Shown piece by piece: positions 1,075 to 54,300 of a stretch of 64,000 bases of DNA. The DNA is from Muricea muricata (taxonomy: Eukaryota; Cnidaria; Anthozoa; Malacalcyonacea; Plexauridae). Made by a program: the position numbers and the translations under genes. The stretch is from assembly GCA_963855995.1 (NCBI GenBank), contig OY979721.1:4712001-4776000 (forward strand), given 5' to 3'. The notes under the pieces were generated by a model. The model did no database searches. It saw nothing but the letters and a program-made list of their open reading frames with translations, and was not told the DNA's origin. Each line of letters starts with the position of its first letter. Position 1 is the stretch's first letter.

Positions 1075-1153
1075 ATGGGTAACAACAACATCCTCAAAGT
1101 GATGTCTATATTACTGATTGTCGTGTTACTTGGTTTTGCGACAAACACAAAAG
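1075..1153 (+). other. Exon 1 of the adhesion GPCR: signal peptide
   Basis: The ATG at 1075 opens 26 codons: a short polar start (MGNNN), then the hydrophobic run VMSILLIVVLLGFA, then TNTK. A GT donor follows at 1154 and the exon ends in phase 1. Charge and hydrophobic layout fit a cleaved signal peptide with cleavage near the Ala/Thr at 22-24 (inferred). The donor reads GTTGGT, weaker than the other donors in this gene, so the join to 5461 is the least secure of the 17 junctions. The phase match and the need for a secretory leader support it. Confidence 0.72.
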
Positions 1154-4100
1154 GTTGGTTTGTATAATGATTTAAAAAAATATCAGAGTGTAGCAAATGT
1201 TGTCGTTCCTTAAATAAACTAGTCATTTAAAAGGATTTCTTTTCAAAGACCGGATGTTAATAAAATCAATTGAATACACGTATTTCTATAGCGTGATATT
1301 CTTTTGAAAGATGTCAAGTTAGGGTTGATAAGTTGTCAACGTTGCGTGTGTATATTCCTTTACCTGAACATTCACAGCTTGTTGCACGTTTACACCATCA
1401 CAGCAACATCCCAGCACGATTTCCAAGTATTCCACCACGCAAATGGCCCTGCAGAGAATTTATATCAGCGAGATTTATTTAGTCGTTGTTTAGCTTCGTT
1501 TGAAAGGCCGAGACCACCAAAACAGTTTGAAAACAATTACTGTGGACCCCAGCCAATGATGTTATACTCAAACTTCATTAAATTAAACATCCTTACAACT
1601 TCCTTAAACCGAGATCAATTCAGAGCCGCACAAGTGGAAAGCCAAAATTGAGCCGAAACCGACCCGAGATAGACAAAACTAGATCACCTCAAAATGACTC
1701 GGATCGGATTCAAATTTTGGATCGATCTACTTTTTTGTTTTTCTCGTTAATTTGAGGTAGATTCACCGAAGTTTTTGTGCAAATGTGTACAAGGCTAGAT
1801 ATAGCGCTACAATTTAATAAGCGCAAAACCTCGAATACTGAGATGTGCTAAAGACCGCACATGTAATGTAATTTGACCACATTTTGCCACCACATAATGA
1901 AGCAAACAGCTATGTCGCCCATGCAGACTTGGGAGCAAACTAGGGACCGTTTTCTCAGATCCTGTGACCAGGATCGATCGTCGCTCGTTCCTGCAGGGAT
2001 TCTATGAGAAATATATTTCTAGAGTCGGAAGTTTTGACTTGTGTCATAGCCGAGCAGAAGGCGAATGATTGCATTTTCAATACAACAAGAGCGCTCACAG
2101 CTTGTTTTATAGCCTTGCAAGGAAACATGCATGGTATAAGGAAATACACAAGACACTGAACCAGCAAGATCTTTTTTTTAAGATCCTCAGTTATCAAACA
2201 TGAATTCCATGTCCATGAAAGATCTTTCTCTCAACACCTCGTAAAGAAAACTCTCAAATTTTGCGGATAGGAGAAATGATAGATGAGGCAAATCAACTAC
2301 CACAAGAAATATCATACATGCCAGATAGATCCTGAAATCGCGCTGATAATCTCAAGCAACGTTGCTAGTGTAGATAGTGCAGTGGAAAGCAGGGATTATT
2401 CTAAGCTACCACTTTTTTGAATGGGAAATATATATTTTAGTTTCGACTTTAATGTATAATCTTAACTTAATTAACATGAAGGTCCTGTTATATTAAAAAT
2501 GCAATCGCTAGCCTTGTGCTCGGCTATATTCAATACAACAAAGTCAACTTTATTGTGAACATTACATAAATATAGAAATATATTTCGCATTAAAAAATGG
2601 TAGAAACTCCAGGTTAGAACCCCTTTTCAAAAACACGCGAAAATATAGGATCTTCATTACCTCAAACGATGTATTAAACAGAATTCGACGTTTTGAACAA
2701 AAACCCCCAGTGGAAAAGTTAGCACTTCCCAGACGTTATAAATGTCATTATGACCAGATTCACCAGAAAAAAGCCAGTAGTTCCAAGCTAACGTACGTTG
2801 TAAGTGTTGCGGTTGGACATGCAATTAAAAGCACACGAAAATGTGAGATCTTATTTTCCCTACCTGAGACAATATAAACAGAATTTGACGTTTGGAACAA
2901 GGACGGTAGGTCACTATACTAACTTCTGGCTGGAATCCTGACCCCTTGCTCAAAACGTCTAAGGTGTGTATATCGTTTCAGGTGGTGAAAGATCTTATAT
3001 TTTAGCAATATAGCACTCGTTAAGATCCTAAATTGAAGTTTCTGGCAATGCTCGAAGGTGAATATTTTTTAATTCTTCAATATCGAAGAGAAAAAAACCA
3101 CACTTACGGCGAGGGATGCGGAGAATTATAATATATTAAGGATTGTACACTTGAAATATTGGGCCTTTGCGTCGGAGGCAAAGAGAGAGCTTTTGTGATA
3201 CTTGTGTAAAGTTGCGACGCTCCACGCAAAGTATGAGTGTTTATATCCATACTGATATACATGCCTGACCACGGTGAGAATCGATTAACCTACGAGCTCG
3301 ATGCTATTTCATTACAATTGTCAGCCAGTCAATTGCATTTTCTGGCCAATAAGAACGCTGAACTGGCTGGTGGCAGCCAGTAAACTGCATAATGATAGGG
3401 CGCCGTGTTTCACAGCTTAGCGGCCCTACTGTCTATTCCCTGTACTGTGATTCCAAAGGTCGTAAGTTCGATTCCCACCGTCGTCAGGCATACTTTAGCA
3501 TGCCTGCATGATGTATATATAAACTCAGAGTAACACCAGAGACCTCATTACACCTTGGCCGCCATCTTTGGAAATAAATTAATAACCAGGATCCACAAAA
3601 TTCATCTATTTTCAAACGCCGTTTTCAACCTTTGAATTAATCTTGTTTTTAGCCCTTTTTTAACCGTCCCAACTTAAACACACTGACGAGCTGAGCGATC
3701 AAATAGATCGTTCATAGCTAGTTAAGAAGATATTTAGCATACTAAATTGCTCTAGTGTACGATAAGAATAATACCGTAATCAGTAACATGTGGGTCTAGT
3801 GTACGTAGACGTAGCATATTACACATACATTAAGATATCGTGGTTTGTGTCTGAACTGCCTGAAAAAGATATGTTAAACGTGCTGGCCCTGTGTAGGTAG
3901 TATTCTACAATGAACAGTCGCTGTTGAATTATTTCTGAAAATATTATCAAACACCTCATTGGAAATCTAAAAATCCTTCGCCTAGTTAAAACACGGAAGT
4001 TTATCTTAATTATTTGGGTGTGTCTGTGTGTGTGTGTGTTTGTTGCGAGCTCAAGTGCTTATCAAAGATCGGAAGATTAAGCCCAATATCAATAATATAT

Positions 4101-7100
4101 GTAGCTAACGCAAATGTGAACAAAATCACAAAAATCACGTTCCATCACTCTCTCACACTCAATAGAAAGTATTCGACCTCTAGAGAGTTTTTAGAATTAA
4201 TGCAAACTACTTGTGAGATGGCTTCGGTTGACCTCCAGCGAAACCACTCGAGAACTGATAGAGCTATCTAGCATGAACATAAACGCAAGTTCAGTTTTAG
4301 GTTCCCTCCAGTTGTAACATTAAGAGATGATCCTTACTGGACCTCTCCGAGTGGACCTCTAGGAAGAACAGTTTAGAGCTGATAGAGCCATGCTAAACAT
4401 GTGGCCCACAATCCACAGCCCTCTCTTGAAAAGTAAAATTATTGCGACTGACGTATTCACCTACGACAGGTGGTTATATCGTTATGAATGTCTATCATGT
4501 TAAATGTAAATAGGTCGATATCAACTGGTCAATAATATCTTCAACGAGTTTTATGGATGACTTAGGCCAGGTACACACAGTGTCGTTTCCGAGCGGTTTT
4601 TCAACAGCAAAAATGAAAGCGCTATAAAAATGTGCATTGCATGAGGATATTAGTTTCTGTCCGGAAACGAGCTTTATGTTAGTTTTCGTTGAAACATGCC
4701 AAAAAGTTGGGAACTTATTGAAATACTTTAAAATTAACAATGCTTGAAAACGACCTTATGTGCACAATAGCCTTAAATGAATGCCAATGCAAAACATTCA
4801 CCAAAAGTAACGAAGAAAAGATGAAACAACTTTTACAGTCATTTTTAGTTAACATTTACTATAAGATAAGATTTAGATGTTACATTAGTTGCCAACTTCG
4901 ATCCCAGGGTCTCTTTGTGGTGAAGTGTGTAGTGGACAGAGACCCTGGAAATAACCAAATTTTCCAATATAGTTAGAAATTATCGGGTTCTCAACGTCTG
5001 TAAAAAAGTTCTAAAGGCCTTCCACCTCATGCTACACCATGGCAAAGAGCATATAGAGGTTAAAGTTCTCATTAATTATGCGTACCCCTGGCTTAGTCAG
5101 TGCGCTAGAAAGAGGATTTCTCTCCCTGAAAATACTCATCATGTCTATTAAAAATGACCAGGGGGAGAAGGCCTCTCCTTAGCGCACTGACTAAGCTAAG
5201 AGAAGTTTAACCTCTGTATGTTCTGTGACCATGGAGGCCCTGGGTGACGAAGTGCGTTTGTTTCAGCCATTTTGTTGCTCCCCAGCAATAGCACTAGGGG
5301 CAACAACACTCCACTCTCCTCCCCCCCACCTTGGTTGTTCCGAAAGCGTTATAAAATTTTCGCTGAACAAACATGCCTTGATCTTTTAGGTCGCATGGAT
5401 GATACATTTAACGGGGAGGGGTTTGTGCATATTTCTAAAGCATGTGTAATGTGTTTTCAGGAGACACAGACGAGTCTGGAGATAAAGAACAAGTGGGGAC
5501 TAGTACTGATAGCGGTAGTGGAATGTCAGCAGACGTCAGTGGAGAGGAACCGGAGAACGAAAACACGACAGCAGTGGATAGCGGAGAAAATGAAAAGAAA
5601 GAATACGAAGAGGAAGATAAAAGACAACTGATGGACGATGATGTAAATACGAATAGTAGTGAGACGAAGATGACAGAAAATGAACAGGATGGCATTAATG
5701 CAACTGTTAGTGGTGGTGAAAATAAAAGAAACTCAACAGATGAGAGCTCTGGTGATGGAGAAACGGATGGAGGAGTAAATCAGGAGGATGTCTGGTCAGA
5801 CGGAAACACAAATATAACTGTAGTAACTAGTGAGGATTCTGAGGACGAGCCGAAGGAAAACGAAAAAAGTGAAATGCGCATGCAAGGTTCGAATAACCCA
5901 CAAAGTTGCAGAATTAATCCACAAGGCAAAACCATTCCAAATCGACGCTGTAAAGGATCAACACCAACTCCGACAACAACACCGATATTAACAGATGACA
6001 GGTTAACATCAACATCAACATCAACATCAAGACATGACATATCAACACCAACACTACCACTAACATCAAGATCAACAGGCAAGGGTCCAACACAAACAGA
6101 TGATCGATCAAAATCATCGCTACTCCCAACCCCAACACCAACACGAACTGCTACTCCAACACCAATCCCAACATCAAGATCAATAGGCGAGGGATCACTA
6201 CCAACAGATGATGGTTCAACACTGACAGATGATGGATCAACAGCAATACTCGAGGGATCAACACCGACAGATGTAGGATCAACACTGACACCAACACAAA
6301 TTGATGATGGATCAACAGCAACAGATGAGGGAGCAACAGCAAAAACAACATCAACTTATGATGGAACAACACCAACGCCAACATCAATACAAACTGATGA
6401 TGGATCAACACCGGCAGATGAGGGGTCTACATCAACAGATGAGGGTTCAACACCCATACCAACACAAGCATATGATGGATCAACATCTACAGATGATGGA
6501 TCTACACCGATACAAACACAAACTGATGATGCATCAACACCTACAGATGAGGGGTCTACATCAGCAGATGATGGATCAACAGCAATACTCGAGAGATCAA
6601 CACCGACAGATGATGGATCAACACTGACACCAACACAAACTGATGAGGGATCAACAGCAACAGATGAGGGAGCAACAGCGAAAACAACATCAACTTATGA
6701 TGGAACAACACCAACGCCAACATCAACACAAACTGATGATGGATCAACACCGACAGATGAGGGGTCTACATCAACAGATGAGGGTTCAACACCCATACCA
6801 ACACAAACATATGATGGATCAACACCGACAGATGATGGATCGACACCGATACAAATACAAACTGATGATGCATCAACACCTACAGATGATGGGTCTACAT
6901 CAGCAGATGATGGATCAACAGCAGTACTCGAGGGATCAACACCGACAGATGATGGATCAACACTGACACCAACACAAACTGATGATGGATCAACAGCAAC
7001 AGATGAGGGTTCAACACCCATACCAACACAAGCATATGATGGATCAACACCGACAGATGATGGATCGACACCGATACAAACACAAACTGATGATGCATCA

Positions 7101-10100
7101 ACACCTACAGATGATGGGTCTACATCAACAGATGAGAGTTCAACACTCATACCAACACAAGCATATGATGGATCAACACCAACAGATGCTGGATCGACAC
7201 CGATACAAACACAAACTGATGATGTATCAACACCAACAGATGTTGGAATAATACCGAAAACAGCACCAACGCCAACACGAACATCAACACCAGCATCAAC
7301 GCCAATACCAACATCCATACCATATGATGATGATGGCGCAGAACCAACAGATAAAAGCTCAAACCAAAAGAATAAGGAAAAAAAGAGACGTAAGTATAAC
7401 GCCGAATTCTGTTTATATCAAAACAGAACTATTGAACCTAATTTATCAAATTTCAATAAAGCCTATGACTCTCGTCAACTCTGTTCCAGCACTAAATTTT
7501 GATATTTTGCTAAGAAAACACGCAATAAAAAATGCATATTTTCGTATGCATATTTGTATATTAATAACGACCAGAAGGCCTTTTTTTCCTAACCAATTTT
7601 ATTAAATGATTGTAGCAACGGAGTTTCCGAGTTTACTCCATCATCAGGTTTCATACATACGCACTTCTTTAAACAGCCTTCGGGTCTTTGTTGATATACA
7701 AATACAAGAAAGTTGCGAAAACACGCACGTATTCTCAAAACACAATCCAACTGGGCAACTGGCAAAACAAAAAAACCTCATAAACACAACAATATACATG
7801 GATATAAGCAAACACTTGAAAAACATTTACAAATATAGCGAAAAATACAGCAAATTAAAAACATTAACGAATGTTCAAAACCCGATCAGACTGATCAAAA
7901 TACAAACAAAAAGAGACTTGTGCCCAGGGATCACAATACAGGGTCGAGAAAACCGACTTCGACGCTTCTTTGACATTCTTGTCATTAGCTTGCGCTAATG
8001 TAAATAAATACAATCATATTATGTATTGTGATAATTGTGAAGTTCTAGTTGTAGAACATTTCAACTTTTGCCCTGGATGTATGTGGTGAGGCAATTCGTG
8101 CTGGTTTTTCAAGCATTGAACCATGTATTAGACAAGGTATTAGTAACAATTTGACTTAAGAACTGACCTGATTCTACTTTGAATGAGATTTCCAGCACAT
8201 TTCAATTTTTTATCTAAGTTTCACGCTATTGAAGCAAGGTGAGGCTACCCCCGGGTCAATATCGCGAAGTAGTCTCTAAACTGGAGCTATTAAAACATGG
8301 TCTGTGGCAAATGTTTAGAACTTTTGTGCTTCGCTGTGATTGGTCAATTTTACGAATTCTGGAATCGGCAAAGAAACATGAACGACAAAGTGAACGTTAA
8401 CACTTGTGTCTATTTATAACAATATTTTTCGACTCTACCACAATTAATACATTGTTTATTAAGCTTATCTGGGGAAAAGATCTTCAAAGTTACACCCATA
8501 TCGATTTAAGCGAAATACGTACGTTATCTAATGCATAAAATGTCGATATTGAAGCAGCAATTTGTAATTCTTCGTGGCGCCACTGACATCAGTTGGCAAC
8601 AAGAAGTTGTGTATTACACTACTTTTTTCATCTTAGACGTCGTTTTTATGTCTGAATTTCTATCCTATTCGGTGGATACCTTTTTGAAGACTATTGACTG
8701 TTAACTATATGGACTACAGTGGCTGGAGTTGAACAAAATAGGTACAAAACGAACAATGACCGCTTTTGCCACAGACCGGTAAAGCATTAATATGTGTGAT
8801 ATTTAGTACGAATAGTTTGCCACATCATTCTGTACCTAACGGGGTTCCAGCTCCGTTCATCTCGTTTTCATTGCGCCTTCTTACTTCCATTTCATCATTT
8901 CGATTTCTTCTCCTAAAGCCGTATTCATTTAGTCGATTAAGAAGCCTCCGGTACGAAACGTCAGCGTGAAACTAAGATAAAAAATTTGAATTGTACTGGA
9001 AACCTCATTTAAAACAGAATCAGATCGCTTCTTCTTTGGTCAAATTCATCTAATATACATGGTGCAATGCTGTAAAAACCAGCACTAATTGCCTCACCAC
9101 ATCCAGAGGAAAAATTGAACTAGAACTTCATAATTATTACAATACATAACATGATTGTATTTATTTACAGTAATATTTGCACTACAACAGCGTTTAATGT
9201 CATGTAAGCTCTTTAACACAGACTCCGTGTTTTCCATATGACTCTATATTTTTGTCATGTAAGCTCTTTAAATGTCATGTAAGCTCTTTAAACAGACTCC
9301 GTGTTTTCCATATGACTCTATATTTTTGATATTTTCCACTCCATGTTCTCCATATTTTGGTAGCCCCGTGTTTTCCAAATGACTCTCTGTTTTTCATATT
9401 TTCCACTCTGTGTTTTCATATTTTGCACTCCATGTTTTCATATTTTCCACTCCGTGTTTTCCATATGACTACGTCTTTTCGCTACTTTACACTTCATGTT
9501 TTTCATATCACTTCGTGTTTTCCATATTTTAACACCCCGTGTTTTCCATATTCATGACGTGAGACTCTGGGACTCCGACTCCCCCACTCCAGTTCCAGCA
9601 CTCCGACCCCGTGTTTTCCACGATTCTCTCAAAATGACGTGTTAACCAATCAGCGTAGCGCAAAAACAATTTCAATTTCACAATAAGCATACTAGTAATA
9701 AGTGTATTAAGTATAATCATACACTGATACACGGCCTGTACTTTACCCAGCATGCTTCCATATCTAAACCTCGCAATGAACAAATGCGGAGGACTATGCG
9801 CGAGTGTTGTCAACCCCACTTATAGTAGACGCATTGTAAACATTTGTTGAACTAAAATCACAAATCGCATTTCATTAAGTTTACTATAGTTGTTCTAGCA
9901 CTTAACATAGGGATTAATTTCTTAACATTTTTCAGAGGAGGCAATAGAGTATTTAAAGGAGAAAGCCAAAGACATTGTTGCAAATAACAAGACACAAGTA
10001 CAGGTGAGTTTAAGGCGATGTCGTGCTCATCAATATTCGCTACCTTAAAGGCTAATGGCAACAAAAAATTCTTTCTTTACATGTAAGAGCTTTTGAACTA

Positions 10101-13100
10101 ACAAAGCCTGTTACAGCATTATCATATCTTGCTCGATTCTTGATATATTTGGATAAAACACGTGAGCTGTCCGCCATCTTGGAAAAATTTTCGACGTTAC
10201 AAGTGGAACAGGCCTAAAGCATTTGCTCGTAATGAAGTGCAAGTAACAAACAATATAGTTGGCCAAAACGCTTTTACTCAATGAGTGACACTCAACAGCA
10301 AGTAAAAACGAGATTCTGGTTCGTTTTGGTAATTACTTGTCAATAATGAAATGTATCGTAATCCCACTAGTGACGTAACTTGTATATCTTTGAAAATCCA
10401 AAATGGCGAACAACTCAAGGAATCAAGCTACATATGAAAACATGTAACAAGCTTTGTTAGTTATTTCAGACACCACGTAAATTTGTTATCGCAGAGTTTT
10501 CGATCTGTATAGCCTGGATCTTCATCAGTGCTAATAATGCACTGATGACGATCCAAGCTTACATACAGATCGAAAGCTTTGCCATGATAAATTTACGTGG
10601 TGTTTCTACAAAATCATACTTTGATATATTTATAATCATCATGCAAAAACATACAATGAACTTAATTCAAAAGCTCTTTCAAAGAAGCAAAGATTAATTT
10701 TTGTTACTATTATCTTTAATATAAAATTGTCATTTTATGATTCGATTTATCTGGGTGTCTGTCTTATGTACTCACGCGAAGACGTTGTTTGTGGTGTTAC
10801 TCTGAGTTTAGTTTTATATCCACACGACCACACCGAGCAAGCAGAAAAAATGCCTGCATGACCACGGCGAGAATCGAACCTACGAATGCCAGCCCAAAGT
10901 CAGGCATTTTTGGGCAAAACTATTGAGGCAAAACGCATTGGCAAAACGTCATGAACCTTATAGATCGGGGAGAGCATAGGGCCCAAACTACCACACCTCC
11001 ACAGTAAAGGGAATAGGGAGTGTGGCCACTCAGCAGTGCAACGTGGTGCTATATGTTTACGCAGTTTACTGGCTGCCACCCGGACTAATCACCGACAATG
11101 GTCGAGGCCGATGTAGCTGTACATCGGCGATTAATCGGCTTCATTTGGAATATTATAGTAATCATTCTTACCTTAATTTTAAGTCCTTCGAATTTTTAGA
11201 ACGTCATGAAATCATTTACAGAAATCCTTTCAGGCGATGATGAGGCTACAGAATCTGCCAAGGTAACAAAAAGACACAAAATATAAAAACGTACAAACAG
11301 TTGAATTAAACTAAAATACAAGTCTATCTATTTTTAAGTTGGAAAATGATATCATAGCAGTACAGCTACTTGAAAAAGTTGGCGCTGTGATGGCATCGCA
11401 ACTAATGCCAAATCAATCAAATCCTGCCAGTGTAGGGCAGATAAACAACGAACAAGGTAATGACCTGAAAAAACATATCCCAAATTTGGTGTGCAGTGCA
11501 GTGTAGGTAGTAGTAATCCACAATAAGCCGTCGTCATTTGTGTCTAAACTCTGAACTACCCGAAAGTATTTTTCAAACTTGGTGGTCCAGTACAATGTAG
11601 GTAGCATTCCACAATAAGCTGTCGTAGTTTGTCTCTAAACTATATCCGGACAAGACACCTCAAACTTGATGGTTCAGCAGAGGTAGTATTCTAAAATAAG
11701 CTGCTTTGTTTTGTGTCAAAAATATATAAAAAGAGGTTATTTAGACTGAAACAACACTTGTTTGTGTCGAATATTACCACAATGGACTATGTAAAGTATT
11801 CAGGGTAGTTTAGAAAAAAGCCTTTGTTCTCACTTCTGATTGTAGACTTTTTTCTTCTAGTGTTCGGTGTAGTGAGGATGCAGGGTGCAAATAAATCCGA
11901 TTTCGCCTTTCCTGACATGATACAGGGTTTGGAAAATGTATCATCATTTCCTGCCAGAGTGCAGTTACCATCTGCAGTCCTCAACAACGATGCAGGTAAT
12001 GGAAAGATGTAAAGATATGAACATTAAAAGATAATTATATCTGAATTTCTGGGAAGAAGAGCTTAGAACAAATAGAGCTATCTAGGATGAAGATAGTATA
12101 GCTTAGGTTTCTTTCTCAAGTACCACTGGGTTAATAAGAGATGATCCTTAGTTGATCTGCGTATAGGAAGAACACTTCAGCACTAACAGAGCTATGCAGT
12201 GCAGCATGAATAAAGTTAGTTTAGTTTAGTTTAGGCTCCTTCTGTAGTGGCACTAGTGACACTGGATGAATAGAAAATGGTTCTACTGCACTTCTAGGAA
12301 GAATTGTATCGAACTGGTGAAGCTATTCAGTATAAATAAAGTTAGTCCAGGTTATTTCACCGGTATCCTTCTAGACCTCTTAGAAAAATAGTTTAAAACT
12401 AGTAGATCTATCCATTCTAAACAAAGTCACTAGTTTTGGTTTCCTCCTGTCATAACACTGGATCAATACGAGACCATGTGCCCCTCTTGGACGGAACACT
12501 TTAGAACTGATATAGTTATCCAACATAAATAATGTTAAAAAATATCATACTTTAACTCCAGGTGGTAATTTAAGTTGCGTATTCATGATCTACACGGCAT
12601 CCTCAAAGATGAGAATGGAAACAGGAGATAAAAATATTAACGTTACTGGAAAGGTTCTCCTTGTCTCACTATTTCCAAAACCCACAAATTCATTCAAGAA
12701 ACCCGTGATGATTACCATAAAGAATACGGTAAGAATCAGATATCAATTATCTGATATTACCCAATTAATTATCTGGCATTAACCAACCAATTCTCTGATA
12801 TTACCCAATCAATTATCTGATATTATTCAAACAATTATCCGATATTACTCAATCTATTATCTGATATTACCCAATCAATTATCTGATATTACCCAATCAA
12901 TTATTATGTTGTCGCTCTTCACTCGATGTTAAATACTTTGTAAAGGGTCTTAATTCGAATGGAGATCACACACATATTGAGATTCAAGCCGAAATTCAAA
13001 TTTCGACATGTGCATGACTTCCACTTGAAATAAGACACGTTAAAGCCTGGTTCACACTTGTCGCAAAAATCGGGATGACTTCTTCTGGTCGATGTGATTG

Positions 13101-16100
13101 AGTCGATTTCCTGGTCGCTTATAAAACGGCAGAAACCATTTTTCTGTAATACATTTATATTGAAATTCGAACAAATGTACTTGCCAGAAATGCGCGTGGA
13201 TATGACGTAATCCGTGAGACAGCGAAATCATAGGCAAAGTATCCCCAGTTGCTCATCTATGTATCCTTCCATTATCCGATCAATGCATTAATCGACAGGC
13301 ATGTTTAACTAATCTATTTTATTTTACATATCTATCCTATTTTAAGTTCTTATTAAAGAATTACTCCAATGGTACATTCCAACCGATTTGTGTGTTCCTA
13401 ATGGAAAACGCTTCAATGTAAGTGAAACCAAAACGTATCGATTAAAAACATATAATATAATACCCTCGTTAAATTAAGATCATTTGATTGGTTGATTATG
13501 TTCGTTGCTTGTTTACATGACTAAAATAAATCTGAGTATAATTTTGTGGAAACAACACGTAAATTTACTATGACTAAATTCAAAAATCATCATAACTAAT
13601 TCAAAATTATCATTATTATACATAATTATTATTAATCGTGTATGTTTAATTTATCATCCGAGCTTACGGATCGAAAGCTATTTGATAATATTTTCACGTG
13701 GTTGGTTATGATTTATGGTCACATAATATTGAATAGAAAGTCCTGTTTGCCAAGAGTGCTATTTTCATTCGGTGAATGATGCAATGTTTCATCCCCTCGT
13801 TGAATGGATCGTTCCATCTTTCACCTCATGAAAATACTCCAAAATTTCACTCATAAACATTCACTATTTGTATGTGATATCCTCCCTTTCATATATAAAA
13901 TCTCTGTGCGTGTTCTAACTATTCTTCTAGCCGAAACAGCAGACAGCAGTTTGGGGCGTGGTCAAACCAAGGATGCATTGTGTCGTATAGTAATGCGTCA
14001 CACACAATATGTCACTGTGATCATCTCACAAACTTCGCAATACTGACTCGCTTCTCTCCAGGAAAGGTATAAAAAAACTAAACTAAAGCAAACGAGTTCA
14101 AAAGTTAAAGGGATTTAATGAACGTTTCACCCGTGATATCCTTCTTTCATTCGACGTTAACTTGATTTTCATTCATGAACTCTTTTTCATCGTTTAACCA
14201 CGACATACGTGTTGGGAAAACTCTCATACAAACTCGCTTCCCAACTCTCATCAACTCTCATGCAACTGCAGTTCTCGCTCAATACGGGCATCAGAGTTGA
14301 GGAAACGCTCATGTTAACCCCCCCTTGTCAACTCTTATCAGCTCTCTTATTGTCTCATTTTATTCCGACGCATGACATCTGAAACACAAACGCAAATTTT
14401 CACTCGCCGTCTCCTTAAGAAGTCTATTAAAAATTTGAGATGTGAGATTTGAGATGCAAGAGTACAGAGGCAATCCGTGTCGATGTAAATAATAATGAGC
14501 CTTGGATATACTTCCTTAACAGATCCAACCTGAACATGAACTAGCTTTGAGTATAATAACATACATTGGTCTATCATTGTCAATATTTGGATGTTTGGCG
14601 ACATTGGTCGTGCATCTAGTGCTACCGTGAGTAATGATATGTTAAATATTGATCTTTTCATCTGTAGCAACGCGATCTTAAATCGCGATGCCTTATGGTC
14701 TAGCCTGGGTAAAAACGCCATTTAAAAGCCGATATTTTTGAGGAAATTAGTTATTCTAATAGGGCTTAGTTATTCTAAAAAAATTATGATCATTCACCCT
14801 GCATTTATATTATTTATGGTTTTGCAGTAAACTTTGGACGGACAGAGGTTTTATTCACATGAACTTGGTGGTTGCTCTGGGAATTGCAAATCTGGTTTTC
14901 CTCTTTCAAAAACTGCCGGACATTGGCTCGGTAAGTGTTAAATTACTATAAGTAATGCGCATATTAGGTAATAGCTTCGCATTGGGGTTGATTAGTGATT
15001 CAATGTACCCGAAAACCAAAGGATGAAGTAAACCTCCAGAGGCTAGAGGGACATTTAATCCCCAATGCCATGCTTTTAGTTTGCAATATCATGGTAACGC
15101 TTATCGAAACAAGGAACGCTTCTAGGGGACATGAATAACAAGCGCAGATATTCTACCTAAACATTAGATATGATTAGCTAGTAATCGCAGTAAATGCATA
15201 ATGATCAGGAAGAAAGGGAAGGGATAAGAAAAAGGAACGAAGAAAGGCACAAAAGGTGATAAGGAAGGAAGAAAAGTGATGGAAGAGAGAGAGCCAATCA
15301 AGGTACAAAAGATAAGAATGAAGGAAGAGAAGGGAAAGAAGGAAGGTATATTAAAAGTAAAATGAAAGGGGAGATAAAGGAAGAGAGAATTAGTATGTTC
15401 CTGTAAACAAAATAGTAATAAGTTCCTTGTATTGTATTTTTGCATGGTGGATATCAAATTAAAAAATAATTGTGTGGAAACACCACGTAAATTTATTATC
15501 GCAAAGCTTTTGATCCGTAAGCTCGGATCTATCTATTATTATATTATTATTAGCATAAATTATATTTTAAACAAAACAAAAGTGTTGTTGAAACTTTAAT
15601 CTACACTGCAAATCAACATATCATTTCATGCTCTATTCATTCATTCGTTTCACTTGTTTGTGTTTGCCTTCTCATATGCGGAATCCAAGCATGTTACTTT
15701 TCCTCACCCCCTTAGCTGCAAAACCTACATGAATTTACCTCACTTAAATGGTTGACAAATTAAACTGCCCGGACACATCTTGTTTACACAGGATGGCTGT
15801 ACGGCACTGGCTCTCGTCCTGCTGTATTTCTATTTGACTGCATTTGCCTGGATGATGTTGGAGGGAATTCATATCTACCGAATGCTTGTTAAAGTATTTG
15901 AAACAGGAAAAGATCCAAGAAAAACTTACTTTATGATTGGCTGGGGTAAGCTTCGTAAAATAACCTCCGCAATTTCAACTCGAGTAAAGCCTTTCGTAAA
16001 ATTACGATACATTCTTGCGCGCAGACCAGGAAACACTTTTGTGAGAAACACTAATCTTAAGAAATTGTTATGTTGCAAAACTGCATTCTTTTTCTAGTGA

Positions 16101-18474
16101 TAGATTTATATAGTATACTAGCGAATTTTTCTAACCAACATTTTATATGAACTTTCTTTCAACTCTGGTGACTTCATCACATCTTTATTGATCTCGTACG
16201 TAAAACAAGCCGGATCACATAAAAAGGCAATAAAACTGAAACGGGGCGCTAAACATTTCTAGGTTTCAATACACTAATCAGTAATCATCTTATACTCTTT
16301 TTCCATATAGGACTACCAGTGATATTAGTTATCATAACTATTACAGTATTTCAAGATGAAGTAACCTCTGAGTACTAGTGAGTAGTTTAACTATGTTTCC
16401 ATGTTTATTCCCTCAAGAGATCAGGTAGCCAAAGTTCACGAATTAACCATAGTGTTCCACCAATTTGTGACACAATTCGTCCATTTGTTCTCTTTTCTGG
16501 TTGCCTGCGCTCTATTGTACATGTCGTATAGTAACAATTCATATTTGTTGATAATTAATCGGACGCGTAATTTATCACAGTACATCTAATCAATTAATCT
16601 TCTAATTTCTTCACGTGGCCATACAATCTCCATCTACTAACTTTTGGCTCACACCATGTGTCTGCATTTCAAATTTCCTTTCGTCTCAGAAGCTTGAATA
16701 ATTTCTGCTACAGGTACTGCCGGTTTGTTCACCTGATTTTCCCGCAACGTCCAATTTCCCTGTCCCACATCACAGACCTCACCAACATTTTGTAAATCTG
16801 CTTCTGGCATCTGTTTATCATGAATATTTAACAAAAACCCCTACTGATATGTCCTGCTTGCTGCGATGTTTCCTGTATCTCCCTAAAGAGAGCACCTAGA
16901 GCCAACCCGTTTGATCTACTCAATTGTTTTTACAATGTGTTAGGAGATATTTTCTTCCATGGAAGCAAGTTTTGTTTCAGCAAAAACGATTGCCGAGGTG
17001 GGCAAACGGCAAACATATTTTTCCGCAACAATGTTATTTAGTTTCTCCAGAGTGTTAATTCACGGTTTTTCGCTGTTTAGTTGTTGGTTGTCGGCTACCA
17101 GCGGCGCCATGTGGATGTTCGCAGGTCCAGTGTGTTTGGTTATCTTTGTAAGTTCACTTCATTTTTTCTTTTACACAGCAGAAACAACATAGAGTTGATA
17201 TCAGGTGTGGATTTACCTTCTTGATGCATGTTTGTCATCAAGTTGCACTGAACCTAACCTGTTTGCATGATAGTGCATCTAATCTGATAAAAGCCCAGAC
17301 GTGATTTAACTTCGCGTTTTGGCCTTTACCCATCCAGATTAATAGATAAAGGCCCAAAACGCGCAAGTTGGATCAAGTCTGGGTTTTTATCTAATTCCAT
17401 TTGGTACCGAAATTAATTCGCTGCTTATAATTCAGGTCAATACGTTCATGCTCTTGGTCGTCTTAAAAACCTCGTTCCATCATTCAAAACATGAAAAAAA
17501 CTTAAGAAGGTAATTATCCTATACTAAGCTACATTTTGTCTATTTTTGCTGTTGGCTTTCTTAGTACGAGGATTACTATTGTCGATTGATGCTGGTGAAT
17601 GAAGAACATCTAAAGATATTACTTTTTCAATGATAACAAATGCATTGAGGAATCAGCCATGCAACTCATGATAAATGGACATAATTTCAGGCATTTAAAC
17701 TGTTTATTTTTGTTAGGTCAATGGCAAAAACATTCTGTGTTCTGCTGCCAGTGTTAGGTCTGACATGGCTGATTGGGCTCATTACATTCAACAAAGACAT
17801 CATAGCAATGCAGTATATTTTTGCTATTCTCAATTCTCTTCAGGTAAAATGATCGGTTGCTGTACCTTGTTTCAAATACGGCATCATCATCATGATCATT
17901 ATCATAATGATGATCATCATGATCATCGTCATGGTCATCATCATCATCATCAACATCATCATCATCAACATGATCATGATCATCATCAAACATGGTTATC
18001 AAACATTTTTCCAATTTCGTGTAGGGATTCTTCATCTTTCTATTTTACGTAGTATACAGTCACGAGGTAAGACTTGTAAGACTTTAACGTCCTTATTAAT
18101 ACATGATTATACTGATGTCATTGTAATAGCAGCCCCTTCCCTGAAGACAAGAATGGTGATCACACTACCATACAGACTAGCAGTCTCCCCCTTCTCGCTT
18201 CCGCCTTACTATTTTAGGGTGATATTTCGAAAATGTTTGCAGGTTGAGATATTTGACTCGAGAGGAGAAGGTCTTGGACTACGCTAACCACCACATCAGC
18301 TCATCGTTATAACATCATCTGCTTTTTCAGGTGCGAAAAGAGATTGCACATAGAGTTGAAATTTGGAAAACCGAGAAAGAAATCAGCGAAAACCAACATG
18401 TAAGCCGTGAGTCGAAGTTGAGATACTCAGAACAGACAAGCAGTGTGCAACCCACTCCATTGAAAGCTTGGTAG
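1075..18474 (+). CDS. Adhesion G-protein-coupled receptor with mucin-like stalk (18 exons)
   Basis: Exons that I joined by GT-AG sites and phase: 1075-1153, 5461-7389, 9936-10003, 11200-11262, 11339-11456, 11861-11995, 12562-12728, 13359-13417, 13931-14066, 14523-14626, 14828-14930, 15792-15945, 16311-16377, 17081-17147, 17436-17509, 17717-17843, 18025-18066, 18331-18474 (stop TAG). The sum is 3636 nt, 1211 residues, with every junction in frame. Order: signal peptide (residues 1 to about 24), Thr/Ser/Asp-rich stalk (27-669), GAIN domain (about 670-905), GPS with Cys888/900/902 and HL|T at 904-906, seven helices (about 925-1164), 48-residue tail. Family hallmarks are LGLTWLIG in TM6 and a paired Cys at the TM3 start (DGC) and in loop 2 (CWLS). 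By family knowledge it is a plasma-membrane receptor, autocleaved at the GPS and activated by the tethered peptide starting TNFAIL. Ligand and vertebrate subfamily are not assignable. The start is the first ATG of a hydrophobic leader whose donor phase (1) matches the stalk exon. I saw no further coding exon in the 4.3-kb intron 1, but an alternative exon could be missed. Confidence 0.9.
3398..3545 (+). mobile_element. tRNA-derived SINE-like copy
   Basis: GGCGCCGTGTTTCACAGCTT with a B-box-like GTAAGTTCGATTCCC about 70 nt later, followed by a body with GCATGCCTGCATGATG and TATAAACTCAGAGTAACACC. The A-box is poor. A reversed copy of the central part lies at 3255-3297, and a longer reversed copy at 10755-11035. 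Confidence 0.45.
4262..4400 (+). repeat. 114-bp dispersed repeat, about one unit
   Basis: Carries GAGATGATCCTTACTGGACC and GGAAGAACAGTTTAGAGCTG. Same family as 12050-12555. Lies in GPCR intron 1. Confidence 0.6.
5037..5234. mobile_element. Palindromic MITE just upstream of GPCR exon 2
   Basis: The ends are CCATGGCAAAGAGCATA and its diverged complement closing with GACCATGG. Arms with GCTTAGTCAGTGCGCTA pair across a ~60-bp loop. It ends about 225 bp before the splice acceptor at 5460. Confidence 0.65.
5461..7389 (+). other. Exon 2 of the adhesion GPCR: mucin-like Thr/Ser/Asp-rich stalk
   Basis: A single exon of 1929 nt (643 codons), phase 1 at both ends, bounded by the acceptor TGTGTTTTCAG and the donor GTAAGT. 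The first ~170 residues are acidic and hydrophilic with Ser-Gly pairs beside acids (DSGSG, SGEEPEN, SSGDGETD), a context that can accept glycosaminoglycan chains (inference). The rest is repeats of DGSTPTD-type units mixed with PTPTPT tracts, which are dense candidate O-glycosylation sites. The last residues before the junction are basic (KNKEKKR). Cysteine is almost absent. Such a segment should form an extended, heavily glycosylated spacer that lifts or shields the GAIN domain. Confidence 0.9.
6183..7235 (+). repeat. Coding tandem repeat in the stalk exon: ~7-residue units in a 339-nt higher-order period
   Basis: The short unit is DGSTPTD or a variant (DEGSTST, DDASTPT, YDGSTPT). On top of it lies a longer period: the same string DGSTATDEG recurs from about 6303, 6642 and 6981, exactly 339 nt (113 codons) apart. 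The first two long units match almost throughout. The third diverges after about ten residues, having lost the block with AKTTSTYDGTTPTPTS. Both periods are multiples of three, so copy-number change keeps the frame. Reverse-strand and shifted frames here are open only because the repeat lacks stops in them. Confidence 0.88.
7997..9172. mobile_element. Foldback element, ~1.18 kb, with ~130-bp inverted ends
   Basis: The left arm (AATGTAAATAAATACAATCA, GAAGTTCTAGTT, GGTGAGGCAATTCGTGCTGG) is mirrored at the right (CCAGCACTAATTGCCTCACC, AACTAGAACTTC, TGATTGTATTTATTTACAGT). The interior shows no transposase. It sits in GPCR intron 2. Confidence 0.7.
9206..9620. repeat. Degenerate tandem repeat (CCGTGTTTTCCATATGACT units)
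   Basis: Irregular units of 20-40 bp, all variants of CTCCGTGTTTTCCATATTTT, plus a repeated GTCATGTAAGCTCTTTAA block. Confidence 0.8.
10096..10463. mobile_element. MITE with AACTAACAAAGC ends in a GPCR intron
   Basis: The left end AACTAACAAAGCCTGTTAC pairs with the right end GTAACAAGCTTTGTTAGTTA. Inner arms with CCGCCATCTTGGA and its diverged partner CAAAATGGCGAA also pair. About 368 bp, no coding capacity. Confidence 0.6.
10470..10613. mobile_element. MITE of the CACCACGTAAATTT family, full copy
   Basis: The left arm ACACCACGTAAATTTGTTAT with TTTCGATCTGTA is mirrored by the right arm TACAGATCGAAAGC with AATTTACGTGGTGTTTC. The loop carries a second small palindrome around CATCAGTGC. Related copies: 13543-13705, 15471-15536, 20157-20273 and 40129-40155. 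Confidence 0.75.
10755..11035 (-). mobile_element. tRNA-derived SINE-like copy, reversed
   Basis: On the minus strand it carries GTAGGTTCGATTCTCGCC (B-box-like) and ends ACTCAGAGTAACACC, as at 3398-3545. It contains a unique insertion around 10900-10960. It lies in GPCR intron 3. Confidence 0.45.
12050..12555 (+). repeat. Cluster of a 114-bp dispersed repeat, ending at a GPCR splice acceptor
   Basis: About four to five diverged head-to-tail units. Key pieces: GAACTGATAGAGCTATCC, AGTATAAATAAAGTTAGTTT, GGTTTCCTCCTGTAGTAACA, CTGGATCAATAAGAGATG. The last partial unit runs to within ~25 bp of the acceptor at 12561. Confidence 0.7.
12738..12905. repeat. Tandem repeat, ~23-bp unit, starting 10 bp after GPCR exon 7
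   Basis: About seven units of ATCTGATATTACCCAATCAATT with small changes. Confidence 0.88.
13543..13705. mobile_element. MITE of the CACCACGTAAATTT family, diverged copy
   Basis: The left end is TTTGTGGAAACAACACGTAA and the right part is GCTTACGGATCGAAAGC followed by TTTTCACGTGGTT. The middle is replaced by AT-rich sequence. It lies in the intron between the two GPS exons. Confidence 0.6.
15205..15390. repeat. Purine-rich tract
   Basis: About 185 bp of almost only A and G on the + strand (GGAAGAAAGGGAAGGG...), in GPCR intron 11. It could form triplex DNA (inference). Confidence 0.8.
15471..15536 (+). repeat. Half copy of the CACCACGTAAATTT MITE family
   Basis: Only the left arm is present: TGTGTGGAAACACCACGTAA, then GCTTTTGATCCGTAAGCTCG. 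Confidence 0.65.
17286..17391. mobile_element. Palindromic MITE-like hairpin in a GPCR intron
   Basis: GATAAAAGCCCAGACGTGAT with CGCGTTTTGGCCTTTA is mirrored by TAAAGGCCCAAAACGCG and AAGTCTGGGTTTTTATC, with a loop of about 14 bp. Confidence 0.65.
17881..17992. repeat. (CAT/ATG)n microsatellite in a GPCR intron
   Basis: Interrupted CAT/TCA/ATG repeats, partly self-complementary (ATGATCATCATGATCAT), 32 bp before the acceptor of exon 17. Confidence 0.9.
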
Positions 18475-20348: not shown

Positions 20349-20693
20349 TCACTTTAATTTCGGCATGGAGTTCGACCTCTTTCGACACAATGCGAGGTGT
20401 TTTCCACTTCCTGTTGAACTTTTTGCGGACCTTTCATCTTGCCAGCTATTGCGGTGTTCTTTTAAATAAGCGATAAATCTATCTTGTCTTTTCATGTATT
20501 TCTTAAGGACCTCATTCGTCTCACGTTCCTTTTTCAGTTCCTGTTTAAGAGCATCGTTTTCAATCAGCAACTGACGGATACGTGCTCGGCTATCGTGGTC
20601 ATCATGTTGTAAAACTCTCAGGGCTTTTTCCAAGTTTTTATTTTCTTCTCGCAACAGCATTAGCGCCATGTCTTGATTTGATAAACCATTCAT
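20349..20693 (-). CDS. Small coiled-coil protein, unknown family (paralogue of the one at 46201)
   Basis: One uninterrupted frame, 114 residues, reading down from the ATG at 20691-20693. Residues ~7-82 are almost all charged or aliphatic with a heptad feel (LLREENKNLEKALRVLQ, then LIENDALKQELKKERETNEV), so a long coiled coil is likely. The tail is basic and Ser-rich (KSSTGSG, RKRSNSMPKLK). There is no signal peptide, membrane segment or known motif. Its first coiled-coil stretch matches residues of the protein at 46201-46596: both read [DE]MA-x(2)-LL-x(2)-EN-x-NLEK-x(4)-LQ. CGTAG just before the ATG could be a splice acceptor, so a non-coding 5' exon is possible. It lies in repeat-rich DNA with a MITE just 3' of the stop. 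The function is not known to me. Confidence 0.62.
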   Translation of the reverse strand: MNGLSNQDMALMLLREENKNLEKALRVLQHDDHDSRARIRQLLIENDALKQELKKERETNEVLKKYMKRQDRFIAYLKEHRNSWQDERSAKSSTGSGKHLALCRKRSNSMPKLK

Positions 20694-20759
20694 GACTACG
20701 GTTGAATCCAGAGTAAAAATTAAATACTAGATCTTCGAATATTTCGCTTTTATTCACAG

Positions 20760-46020: not shown

Positions 46021-46158
46021 GGGCCGGTTGTAAAAACTCTTTGTAATCACTGTTTGTAGTTAAATATAGTGACTGAGTACAAAATACGTTGTTCTGATTG
46101 GTCGACGTTTCCACTAATCATAGTCAACGTAATCACTTTTTTTATGGAACTGGCCCCT
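46021..46158. mobile_element. Short MITE of the GGGGCCGGTTG family upstream of the coiled-coil gene
   Basis: Begins GGGGCCGGTTGTAAAAAC and ends GGAACTGGCCCC, an imperfect inverted pair. It lies 42 bp before the ATG at 46201 and may have supplied 5' sequence to that gene. Confidence 0.55.
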
Positions 46159-46200
46159 GATTCAGTTATTTTATTTCTTCAACAGAGAGATACGACCAAA

Positions 46201-46596
46201 ATGGACTCACTTGCGAAAACGATAGAAAGCGTGGAAGCTCTGTTTCAAAACTCAAACACGAAACCAGAGATGGCCATTAAACTGTTGAAACTAGAGAACG
46301 CGAACTTGGAAAAAACGATAGTTTGTTTGCAAGCACGAAACACGCACGTAGAGGCGGAAAACGAAACGCTACGTAACGAAAGCAGATCGCTAAGAGAGGA
46401 ACTGAGCGAAAGTAAAACTGTTCTAGCTAGCCTTTTGAAACAAATCAAGCGATACGAAAATGCTTTGAAAAAGGAACTGTGCATCAACACATCGTCCGCA
46501 TATTATGAACAGAACGGAGAATTGCTGAAAAAGGACACATCTAGCTCCAGAAAGAGTAGCAGTACAAGCTCAGCTAGCGCAAACGGGTTTGAATGA
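46201..46596 (+). CDS. Small coiled-coil protein, unknown family (paralogue of the one at 20349)
   Basis: 131 residues from the ATG at 46201, in good context (ACCAAAATGG), to TGA at 46594. The frame is open further upstream, to an ATG at 46069, but that extension runs through a MITE (46021-46158). A polypyrimidine-type acceptor, TTTATTTCTTCAACAG, sits 14 nt before the chosen ATG, so I place the start here, probably after a non-coding exon. Residues ~20-95 form a coiled coil (MAIKLLKLENANLEK, AENETLRNESRSLREEL). The last ~25 residues are Ser-rich (SSSRKSSSTSSASA). It has no membrane segment or catalytic motif. It shares about 12 of 22 residues with the paralogue over the first heptads and continues without gaps. 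A role as an oligomerising adaptor is a guess. Confidence 0.62.
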   Translation: MDSLAKTIESVEALFQNSNTKPEMAIKLLKLENANLEKTIVCLQARNTHVEAENETLRNESRSLREELSESKTVLASLLKQIKRYENALKKELCINTSSAYYEQNGELLKKDTSSSRKSSSTSSASANGFE

Positions 46597-51300: not shown

Positions 51301-54300
51301 CAGCTCTGAACTTCTAGAAGTCCAGTGACGATCATCTCTTATTGATCTAGTGTTACTACAGGAGGACACATAATCTATAAACAAACTTTGCTTACACTGG
51401 AAAGCTCTATAGGTTCCACTGTAAACCGTTATTCTTAGAGGTCTACATTATATTTATTTATACTTGATAGCTCTGTCAACTCTAAACCGTTCTTTTTACA
51501 CCATTCTACTGGATATCTCTATCAGTTCTAAACTGTTCTTCCTAGATGTGTAGTGTCACCTCTTAAGTATTGATCCAGTGTTACTACAAGAGAAAACCTA
51601 AACTAACTTTATTTATACGGGATAGCTCTACCAGTTCTGAACTGTTCTTCCTGGAGGTCCATTAAGGATCATCTCTTATTGATCCAGTGTTACTACAGGA
51701 GCAAACCTAAACTAAATTAACTTTATTTATACTGGATAGCTCTATCAGTTCTAAACTGTTCTTCCTAGAGGTCCAGTAAGGATCATCTCTTATTGATCCA
51801 GTGTTACTACTGGAGGAAACCTAAAATAAACTTTAGTTGTATCAGTTCTAAACAGTTATTCCCAGAAGTATTGATAAAGAGTAGCCATACTTTATCTTTA
51901 ACTTTACAACATGAGACAGGTACCCCGCATTCTTCAGGAGTCTTTGCACCACAACGAAAATAGACGTTCCTATCCCAATCATCGATAGAAGTGCTGCCAC
52001 AACATTGCAACTACAAAAAAAAATAACAATTTCTAAATACATTCATTACTGTCATAAACCGTCTATACTAATTTTCAGTGACTCACATTTACTTGTACGC
52101 TATCAACAGCATTTTTCAAATCTGGATCCCTTCTGTACTTTATGATTGCTAATAGAAATGCCGTATTTACCGAATCTTTGATCTGTTGAAATGTAAAAAT
52201 AAGAATTAGTTCCTGTAACCAGACAGTAAATGAACTGGACCGGTTGTATAAAAGGCGTTTAGCTTAAACGGCGGATAAGTCGAAAATATCAAGGAAGCCT
52301 ATGCACTATTGACTGAAAGCAAACTAAACTTTTCGGTCGGAACACAACAACTACGCATAGAACTACATATTTAGTTGATAAAATTTAAGTTCAATTATTT
52401 ACAAGATTAATAATATACAAGGAAATGTTTCTGGGCTGTAATTGGTTGATTCGAGCGCAGTTAATCCTAAACAACACCCAGAACAGTGCAAAAATCTGTA
52501 ACAGTGCAAAAATCTGTAACAACAGTGCAAAAATCTGTAACAACAGTGCAAAAATCTGTAACAGCAGTGCAAAAATCTGTAACAGCAGTGCAAAAATCTG
52601 TAACAGCAGTGGAAAAATCTGTAACAACAGTGCAAAAATCTGTAACAGCAGTGCAAAAATCTGTAACAACAGTGCAAAAATCTGTAACAACAGTGAAAAA
52701 ATCTGTAACAACAGTGCAACAATCTGTAATAAGCTCTTTGAGCGATGGAATTTACTCGCAGAAAAACCAAAAATATGGCGGCCGAATTTTCACGTTTGCT
52801 TAAAGATTTCGTCAAAACTTCAATACAATTTGGGATTCTTCTCTGACAATTATGATCACAAAACAAACTCTAAAGTATGCTGGAACTTTGTACATAAAAT
52901 TTTTAGCCATGGCTTTTATAAACATGAATTTTTTAAGCGAAGAAATTCGAGAATGAGTGCACTTGCGTAATGCGAAGCTGCAAAATCCTTGCTTGAACAT
53001 TTCCTTTTTTATATCATTAATAAGTAATAGTATAATTTCTCGTGCAATTACGGAAAAAAGCACTCGTGAGTTTTTAAAAACCGCAAATAGCACTCGTCCT
53101 TTTAAATTTTTGCTCATCCAACTGACCCCTAGTTAAATTTCCCAGATGCGTTTTACTTGACCAATATCTCGCAGGTCAAAACAACAAAAAATTTGGTTAT
53201 TTCAACCAATTTTTTTACCGTGGTATTTTTTACCAAATTATATTGTCTAAATTTGTCATTTTACCAGAAATATTTTCACATTAAATGGAGTTGAATGATA
53301 CTTATTTAAAACCAAGTTAAACTGTTTGCATGAAATACTTCAAAAATTAAGGTATTTCATTGCCTCACTACGACCAAACCAAGTCTAATATTTTTAGCAG
53401 AGGTCAAGCCATTACACGAAAAGTACAGGTTCTTTCACTACTTAGAACTATAAAGCGAAAATTCAAGTAGTGAAAGAACATATAAGAACCTGTACCTTTG
53501 GTGTTAACGGCACTACCACAAAAGTCAATTACGCACTATATATAATAATGTAAGTTCCCAAAAAGGGTCTCTGCAAAATTTTAGCTACTAGCAAGATTGG
53601 TTAAGGATCGTGCAATACTACATCTGCGTTTACCTCAGTCCAAAATATAAACCCAAGAACACCGATTATGAGTTGAAATGTGAAGATTACAATGACAAAA
53701 AATAGATACTACAAAACAGATAAGTACGGTAAGTACCTGCCTTAACGACGAGCATCAGGCAAAATAAAATAAGCTATAGACTTGCTATGGTTTGTATAGA
53801 CAGCAAGCATTAAGTTTGGTAGGGAAACCGCAAATGAAGCACACTGGAGACAGAAGATGGTCTAGACCTTCCTTAACAAAACAAATTAACTTGAAATACA
53901 CCATCACTGTGTGGGTGTGGGGGGTGGTCTATATATTAATAGCACATATTATAATATTTTTCTCTTTAACCCTCCCTCTCTCTTTCTCTCTCTCTCTTTG
54001 CTGCAATTCTTTCTTCTCTCAGCCGTTTAGTGCATATGAAATGAAAATTTTCATTGCATTATGTGCAAGAACGTTTAAAACTGTAAAACGAGATCTTTAA
54101 TTTCTACTTTTGTGCTAAAGTATTTGGTTGATTAGATATTTGATTTTTTGTTTTGTTAACAAATTACATCACACTTTGCATAATTTTTGTTTTGTTCTCA
54201 ATAAATAAAACACTTGAAACATGGACACATGTGATATAAAGGTCAACGACAAAAAAAACCCATGCTATTTATTTTCCAATTCGCCCCTTGCAGTATGCAG

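Follow-up and report, generated by a model that had tools for sequence, protein, structure and literature searches.

Gene structure

The stretch analysed here, hereafter the window, comprises 64,000 nucleotides of the cnidarian Muricea muricata (assembly GCA_963855995.1, contig OY979721.1, positions 4,712,001 to 4,776,000, forward strand). On its plus strand, between positions 1075 and 18474, lies one ordinary animal adhesion G protein-coupled receptor (aGPCR) gene, in which the outer part of the receptor beyond the self-cutting GAIN domain seems to consist of a single long, sugar-prone stalk. The exon ends were read from the sequence and checked by script. The sequence-only reading had stated that 18 exons join in frame, and this was confirmed: the rebuilt gene is a single open coding sequence of 3624 bp, encoding 1207 aa and closed by one terminal stop, with matching exon phases and GT-AG borders at 17/17 introns.

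Exon 1 (1075..1153, phase 0-1) provides the start codon and a leader that was judged by eye to be signal-like. Exon 2 (5461..7389, phase 1-1) is 1929 bp long, equal to 643 codons, and encodes an acidic segment, a pair of cysteines and a mucin-like repeat array. Subdomain A of GAIN and the first part of subdomain B are presumed to occupy exons 3-7 (9936-10003, 11200-11262, 11339-11456, 11861-11995 and 12562-12728). Exons 8-9 (13359-13417 and 13943-14066) encode the end of GAIN and then the GPS with its HL|T motif, exons 10-17 (14523..18066) the seven-transmembrane (7TM) domain, matching 7tm_2, and exon 18 (18331..18474) the intracellular tail and the stop codon.

Composition and coding status of the stalk exon

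The word stalk is used here for the part between the leader and GAIN; it was once applied to GAIN sequence and is discouraged in a 2026 review (PMC13197933). The first portion of the stalk (5463..5957, plus strand) comprises an acidic, non-repetitive segment (aa 27-175; Asp+Glu 29%, net charge −32, Ser+Thr 22%) followed by the cysteines at aa 176 and 190, which are the only two in the stalk. Residues 191-660 contain 41% Ser+Thr and 11% Pro, with a net charge of −66. A window of 100 aa counts as mucin-like when it has at least 40% Ser+Thr and at least 5% Pro; 276 such windows were found, spanning aa 180-636. The long Ser/Thr/Pro-rich tandem array that marks a mucin-like domain was located at 6190..7260 (plus strand), where it is nested and in frame. 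Its 21-bp unit encodes a Thr/Ser/Pro/Asp heptad, most commonly STPTDDG (six exact copies), and higher-order periods of 54, 75, 129 and 339 bp are superimposed. The protein has 15 N-glycosylation sequons, of which five are in exon 2 (aa 61, 91, 106, 117 and 144), and dense O-glycosylation of the stalk is predicted from its composition. No folded module was found in exon 2 by Pfam.

The coding status of exon 2 was assessed by dinucleotide shuffling. Frame 0 was open in none of 20000 shuffles of the non-repeat part (5463-5957) and in none of 4000 shuffles of the Ser/Thr part (5958-7388). The null is weak for the Ser/Thr part because shuffling destroys the tandem repeat, and the meaningful test is that on the non-repeat part. 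The remaining five frames of the two parts contained 1 to 58 stops. On the shuffle results, a chance open frame was rejected for exon 2. Autocorrelation over 6190-7260 averaged 0.374 at lags divisible by three, compared with 0.237 and 0.239 at the others, and the 25 strongest lags (of 1-399) were all multiples of three, headed by 339, 54, 21, 75 and 129. The two 339-bp copies that pair best share 94.2% identity over 468 bp and gave a pN/pS of 0.89 when read in the true frame, against 0.24 and 1.25 for the two wrong ones; across seven partly overlapping pairs of repeat copies, the true-frame value ranged from 0.35 to 1.22. Since purifying selection among the copies was not clear, the case for the array being coding relies on its open frame, the multiple-of-three periods and the splice phases. 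Strong constraint on the exact repeat residues is not supported by pN/pS, and it is the composition and length of the array that would be kept.

The phase of exon 2 also bears on its use. Skipping a phase 1-1 exon preserves the frame, and this one is flanked by introns of 4.3 and 2.5 kb, as might be expected if it were an optional cassette, with a short leader-GAIN-7TM form as the main product and the stalk included in certain tissues only. The splice sites of exon 2 are nevertheless good, with leave-one-out scores of 7.7 for the acceptor and 7.8 for the donor, and we regard the cassette as unlikely.

GAIN, GPS and transmembrane domains

Pfam placed 7tm_2 at aa 922-1150 (E = 1.9e-52; 178.5 bits against a cut-off of 20.6), which identifies a secretin/adhesion-type 7TM domain, and GPS at aa 862-907 (1.8e-13). 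The GPS carries HL|T ahead of the first transmembrane helix (TM1), as in family B2, and the motif agrees with the HL|T/S consensus given in PMC8878244. Dicty_CAR, a different 7TM family matching the same stretch as 7tm_2, was also above its cut-off (3.6e-5), and ABhydrolase-like_N (0.089) and DUF418 (0.17) were the other two entries.

The solved structures nearest to the GAIN-7TM part, among the best 60 of 89 matches, were ADGRD1 (3.7e-71) and ADGRL3 (8.3e-63), followed by ADGRG6 (1.2e-43) and ADGRG2 (6.9e-43). A closest 7TM kinship to ADGRG (G2/G4) was therefore not found, as ADGRD1 and ADGRL3 outscored the ADGRG chains in what is a ranking and not a tree. When the GAIN-like part alone was compared with solved chains, 19 of the 20 matches were aGPCR chains; the twentieth was a designed protein aligned to residues 1-47 with an E value of 0.95, which is at chance level. 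The earliest alignment began at query residue 120 of 248 (ADGRG2), and the three strongest sequences, ADGRB3 (1.9e-12) and ADGRL3 (3.6e-11 and 7.2e-11), began at residues 144-160. Solved chains thus support GAIN from about aa 785 to 907. As the matches are confined to the C-terminal part, the half of GAIN that holds the cleavage site is secure, and the helical half is presumed to lie in exons 3-5, for which no homology was detected in the solved-chain comparison or by BLASTP against a relative at C15 described below. Within exons 3-7 (9936..12728), homology backs the last part only. The architecture put forward earlier, of leader, mucin-like stalk, GAIN/GPS and 7TM, accordingly holds for the leader, stalk, GPS and 7TM, and is backed by homology for half of GAIN.

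The cleavage site reads HL|TNFAILTRFSP and aligns with TNFAILMQVVP in the ADGRD1 chain. The sequence TNFAILT ahead of TM1 forms a tethered-agonist-like segment, making this receptor a putative case of autoproteolysis and tethered-agonist signalling.

Search for further N-terminal exons

The sequence-only reading had recognized no N-terminal domain besides the stalk and GAIN, a view that exons encoding folded domains in intron 1 would overturn. For domains known to Pfam the view stands: when every open plus-strand piece of 25 aa or more was scanned, no family was above cut-off in intron 1 (48/48) or intron 2 (37/37). Two matches below cut-off were set aside, namely Ntox24 in intron 1 (E = 0.16), taken as chance, and Zn_ribbon_15 in intron 2 (E = 0.0013), from a region resembling a mobile-element remnant. 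At 7996-9172, intron 2 contains three pairs of inverted repeats nested in one another, with lengths of 55, 51 and 29 nt and 90-93% complementarity, and the zinc-ribbon match seems to fall there.

Candidate exons of at least 60 bp were sought with splice-site matrices built from the gene's own sites; shorter exons escape this search. The strict cut-offs pass 12/16 of the known internal exons and the loose ones 15/16. With the strict cut-offs, there were two open candidates in intron 1 and none in intron 2, none of them phase-compatible. With the loose cut-offs, intron 2 gave 23 open candidates, none of phase 1-1, and no chains, whereas intron 1 gave 26 two-exon chains and 32 open candidates, among them five of phase 1-1 with lengths of 23 to 53 aa, all of these being raw counts. 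The five weak candidates and the chains would be the material for a misread N terminus, in which intron 1 exons, or translation from an upstream start, would add a folded adhesion domain. That reading is very unlikely given the lack of any phase-compatible candidate at strict cut-offs, the Pfam results for both introns and an in-frame stop at 1039, the 12th codon upstream of the start codon. The 10 kb preceding the window (L042) contained 30 open frames with a length of 65 aa or more, and Pfam returned no family for the two that were scanned, both on the minus strand. It is well supported that the introns contain no recognizable folded module; a small novel exon, in intron 1 for example, or a distant alternative start may exist.

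Relatives in the genome

Relatives were sought throughout the 453 Mb assembly (74 contigs). The 7tm_2 search gave at least 127 exon-level or whole-domain matches (best 150 of 182 candidates scored), and the search with the GAIN-7TM protein at least 79 (best 80 of 196 candidates). Other than the gene's own exons, the latter were 23-58% identical, so that no recent or close paralogue is among the matches listed. A tandem duplicate within the window was rejected, the best tblastn E value apart from the gene's own exons being 0.98.

Ten 20-kb regions (seven in a cluster on C7 and three at C6:1.45-1.52 Mb, two overlapping by 5 kb) and one 10-kb region on C15 were examined around relatives. The Ser+Thr fraction of open frames on the plus strand, which is that of the genes, never exceeded 0.27 in the ten regions, where frames of 110 aa or more were considered, or 0.23 in the C15 region, where the minimum was 70 aa. 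With no long Ser/Thr-rich frame, a mucin exon shared with these relatives was rejected, although shorter or more distant upstream exons would escape such a comparison. Upstream frames were assigned to the receptor genes by position. Six were scanned with Pfam; two, both from one C7 region, matched Lectin_C above cut-off (2.6e-10 and 7.1e-7). One C6 upstream frame gave an F5/8-type-C-like match below cut-off (1.9e-5) and a second had no Pfam match. On C15, a Cys-rich upstream frame gave only EBA-175_VI (0.037), below cut-off, and the frame adjoining the receptor GPS gave sub-threshold matches to Peptidase_C23 (0.0067) and GAIN (0.032). In at least one distant relative from the same genome, C-type lectin domains thus seem to take the place of mucin.

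The cluster of aGPCR-like matches on C7 extends over C7:9728001-10071000 (parts of which are L009-L022), and other frames there appeared lectin-like by eye. Eight further loci (L001-L008) each have the whole 7tm_2 domain in one open frame (8/8), which indicates that they are intronless or intron-poor; L005 has an internal TGA, and the three loci L004-L006 sit on C16 within some 33 kb of one another. These eight were set aside by eye as being of a different, intron-poor kind.

Elsewhere in the window, open frames at 57547-60933 (plus strand) resembled by eye, in several frames, the gag, reverse transcriptase, RNase H and integrase of a Gypsy-type retroelement. Two coiled-coil-like open frames, at 20352-20726 (minus strand) and 46060-46593 (plus strand), looked alike by eye and had only weak, sub-threshold Pfam matches. 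A tandem array at 52482-52729 comprises 12 copies of a 21-base unit and is open in several frames on both strands.

Interpretation

The best explanation, to which we assign a probability of about 0.72, is a family B2 adhesion GPCR bearing one strongly acidic, O-glycosylation-prone stalk on GAIN/GPS, the stalk serving as a spacer or shield over the cleaved receptor. The ectodomains of aGPCRs acquire N-glycans and mucin-type O-glycans, and the GAIN domains of L1, E2 and D1 cleave in the endoplasmic reticulum (ER) (PMC13197933). In the aGPCRs that have been studied, the two fragments produced by cleavage at the GPS are paired non-covalently (PMC8878244), and the tethered agonist can become exposed once the N-terminal one is released (PMC12716839). 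By analogy, the coral receptor would be cleaved at its GPS in the ER and its two fragments would stay together, while the glycosylated stalk would either hold the receptor clear of the glycocalyx or shield it within. Signalling may begin once some binding partner of the glycans or of the acidic tip pulls off or loosens the N-terminal fragment. At 2.5 Å per residue, the mucin extension quoted in PMC10687090, the whole exon would extend to about 160 nm, of which the 470 residues of the Thr/Ser/Pro part would account for about 120 nm.

Several points weigh against this reading. The Pfam GAIN family (PF16489) was absent among the five families reported at E values up to 1, and BLASTP found no similarity between putative GAIN subdomain A and its counterpart frame in the C15 relative. 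The agonist-like segment has Thr at position 7, where the ADGRD1 chain has Met, which makes agonist strength uncertain. The phase 1-1 candidates obtained in intron 1 at loose cut-offs count here as well, and transcript structure, cleavage and glycans are all predictions from the DNA.

The earlier proposal had also allowed for mechanosensing, in which the stalk would pass force from a distant anchor to GAIN, as proposed for ADGRG4. The general architecture is shared with that receptor, and mucin chains are stiffened by O-glycosylation, the authors of the ADGRG4 study having suggested a shear sensor (PMC10687090). Their suggestion depends, however, on a dimerizing pentraxin-like tip (PMC10687090), and the far end of a force sensor must be anchored, but Pfam recognized no anchor domain. 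In the fly latrophilin dCIRL, moreover, about 20 nm of added ectodomain flattens the mechanical response, the longer ectodomain lowering it (PMC5548486). Mechanosensing is therefore unsupported and quite unlikely. A stalk of 120-160 nm with no recognized anchor, taken with the dCIRL result, favours a spacer, a shield or glycan-mediated contact over force sensing. The composition of the stalk fits the putative spacer-or-shield role that had been suggested for it. A far more speculative idea, and a most improbable one, is that of an anchor-free aGPCR in which the fast-evolving acidic mucin, variable in repeat length, is itself the sensor, whether of compression of the glycocalyx, of microbial glycan binding or of attack by mucinases, the receptor being tuned from one individual to the next by the number of repeats. 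The spacer-or-shield explanation and its rivals are not mutually exclusive.

Comparison with known receptors

The architecture is not unusual in kind, the design with a mucin-like stalk being already known in human receptors. Members of the ADGRE family (CD97, EMRs) have a mucin-like stalk with EGF modules at the tip; Pfam found no EGF match in the coral receptor. ADGRD1 (GPR133), the best solved human relative over GPS and 7TM, carries an N-terminal pentraxin domain, of which no counterpart was found by Pfam. Human ADGRG2 (GPR64/HE6) has a Ser/Thr-rich N terminus and GAIN/GPS with no classical adhesion array, but its N terminus is shorter than that of the coral receptor and lacks the acidic heptad array; its structure matched at 6.9e-43, and orthology is without support. 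GPS receptors with Ser/Thr-rich regions were reportedly described by Fredriksson in 2002.

Human ADGRG4 (GPR112) is alike in having a very long mucin-like Ser/Thr stalk before GAIN-7TM, one that is longer than the stalk described here (PMC10687090). It differs in its pentraxin-like tip, HRM and predicted SEA domain, within an extracellular region of more than 2700 aa (PMC10687090); none of these three domains was recognized by Pfam in the coral receptor. The solved 7TM construct of ADGRG4 scored 3.5e-29, below ADGRD1, L3, G6 and G2. Titles and abstract openings from keyword literature searches, a scope that takes in few subscription papers, named no such receptor outside vertebrates, and the word mucin is absent from the main text of a sponge GPCR paper (PMC4302439) and of PMC12716839.

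The family picture is unchanged by this receptor. If transcripts confirm the architecture, it would be a natural aGPCR whose N-terminal fragment beyond GAIN is mucin alone, and would offer a clean test of the sole effect of a glycosylated spacer on GAIN-7TM signalling.

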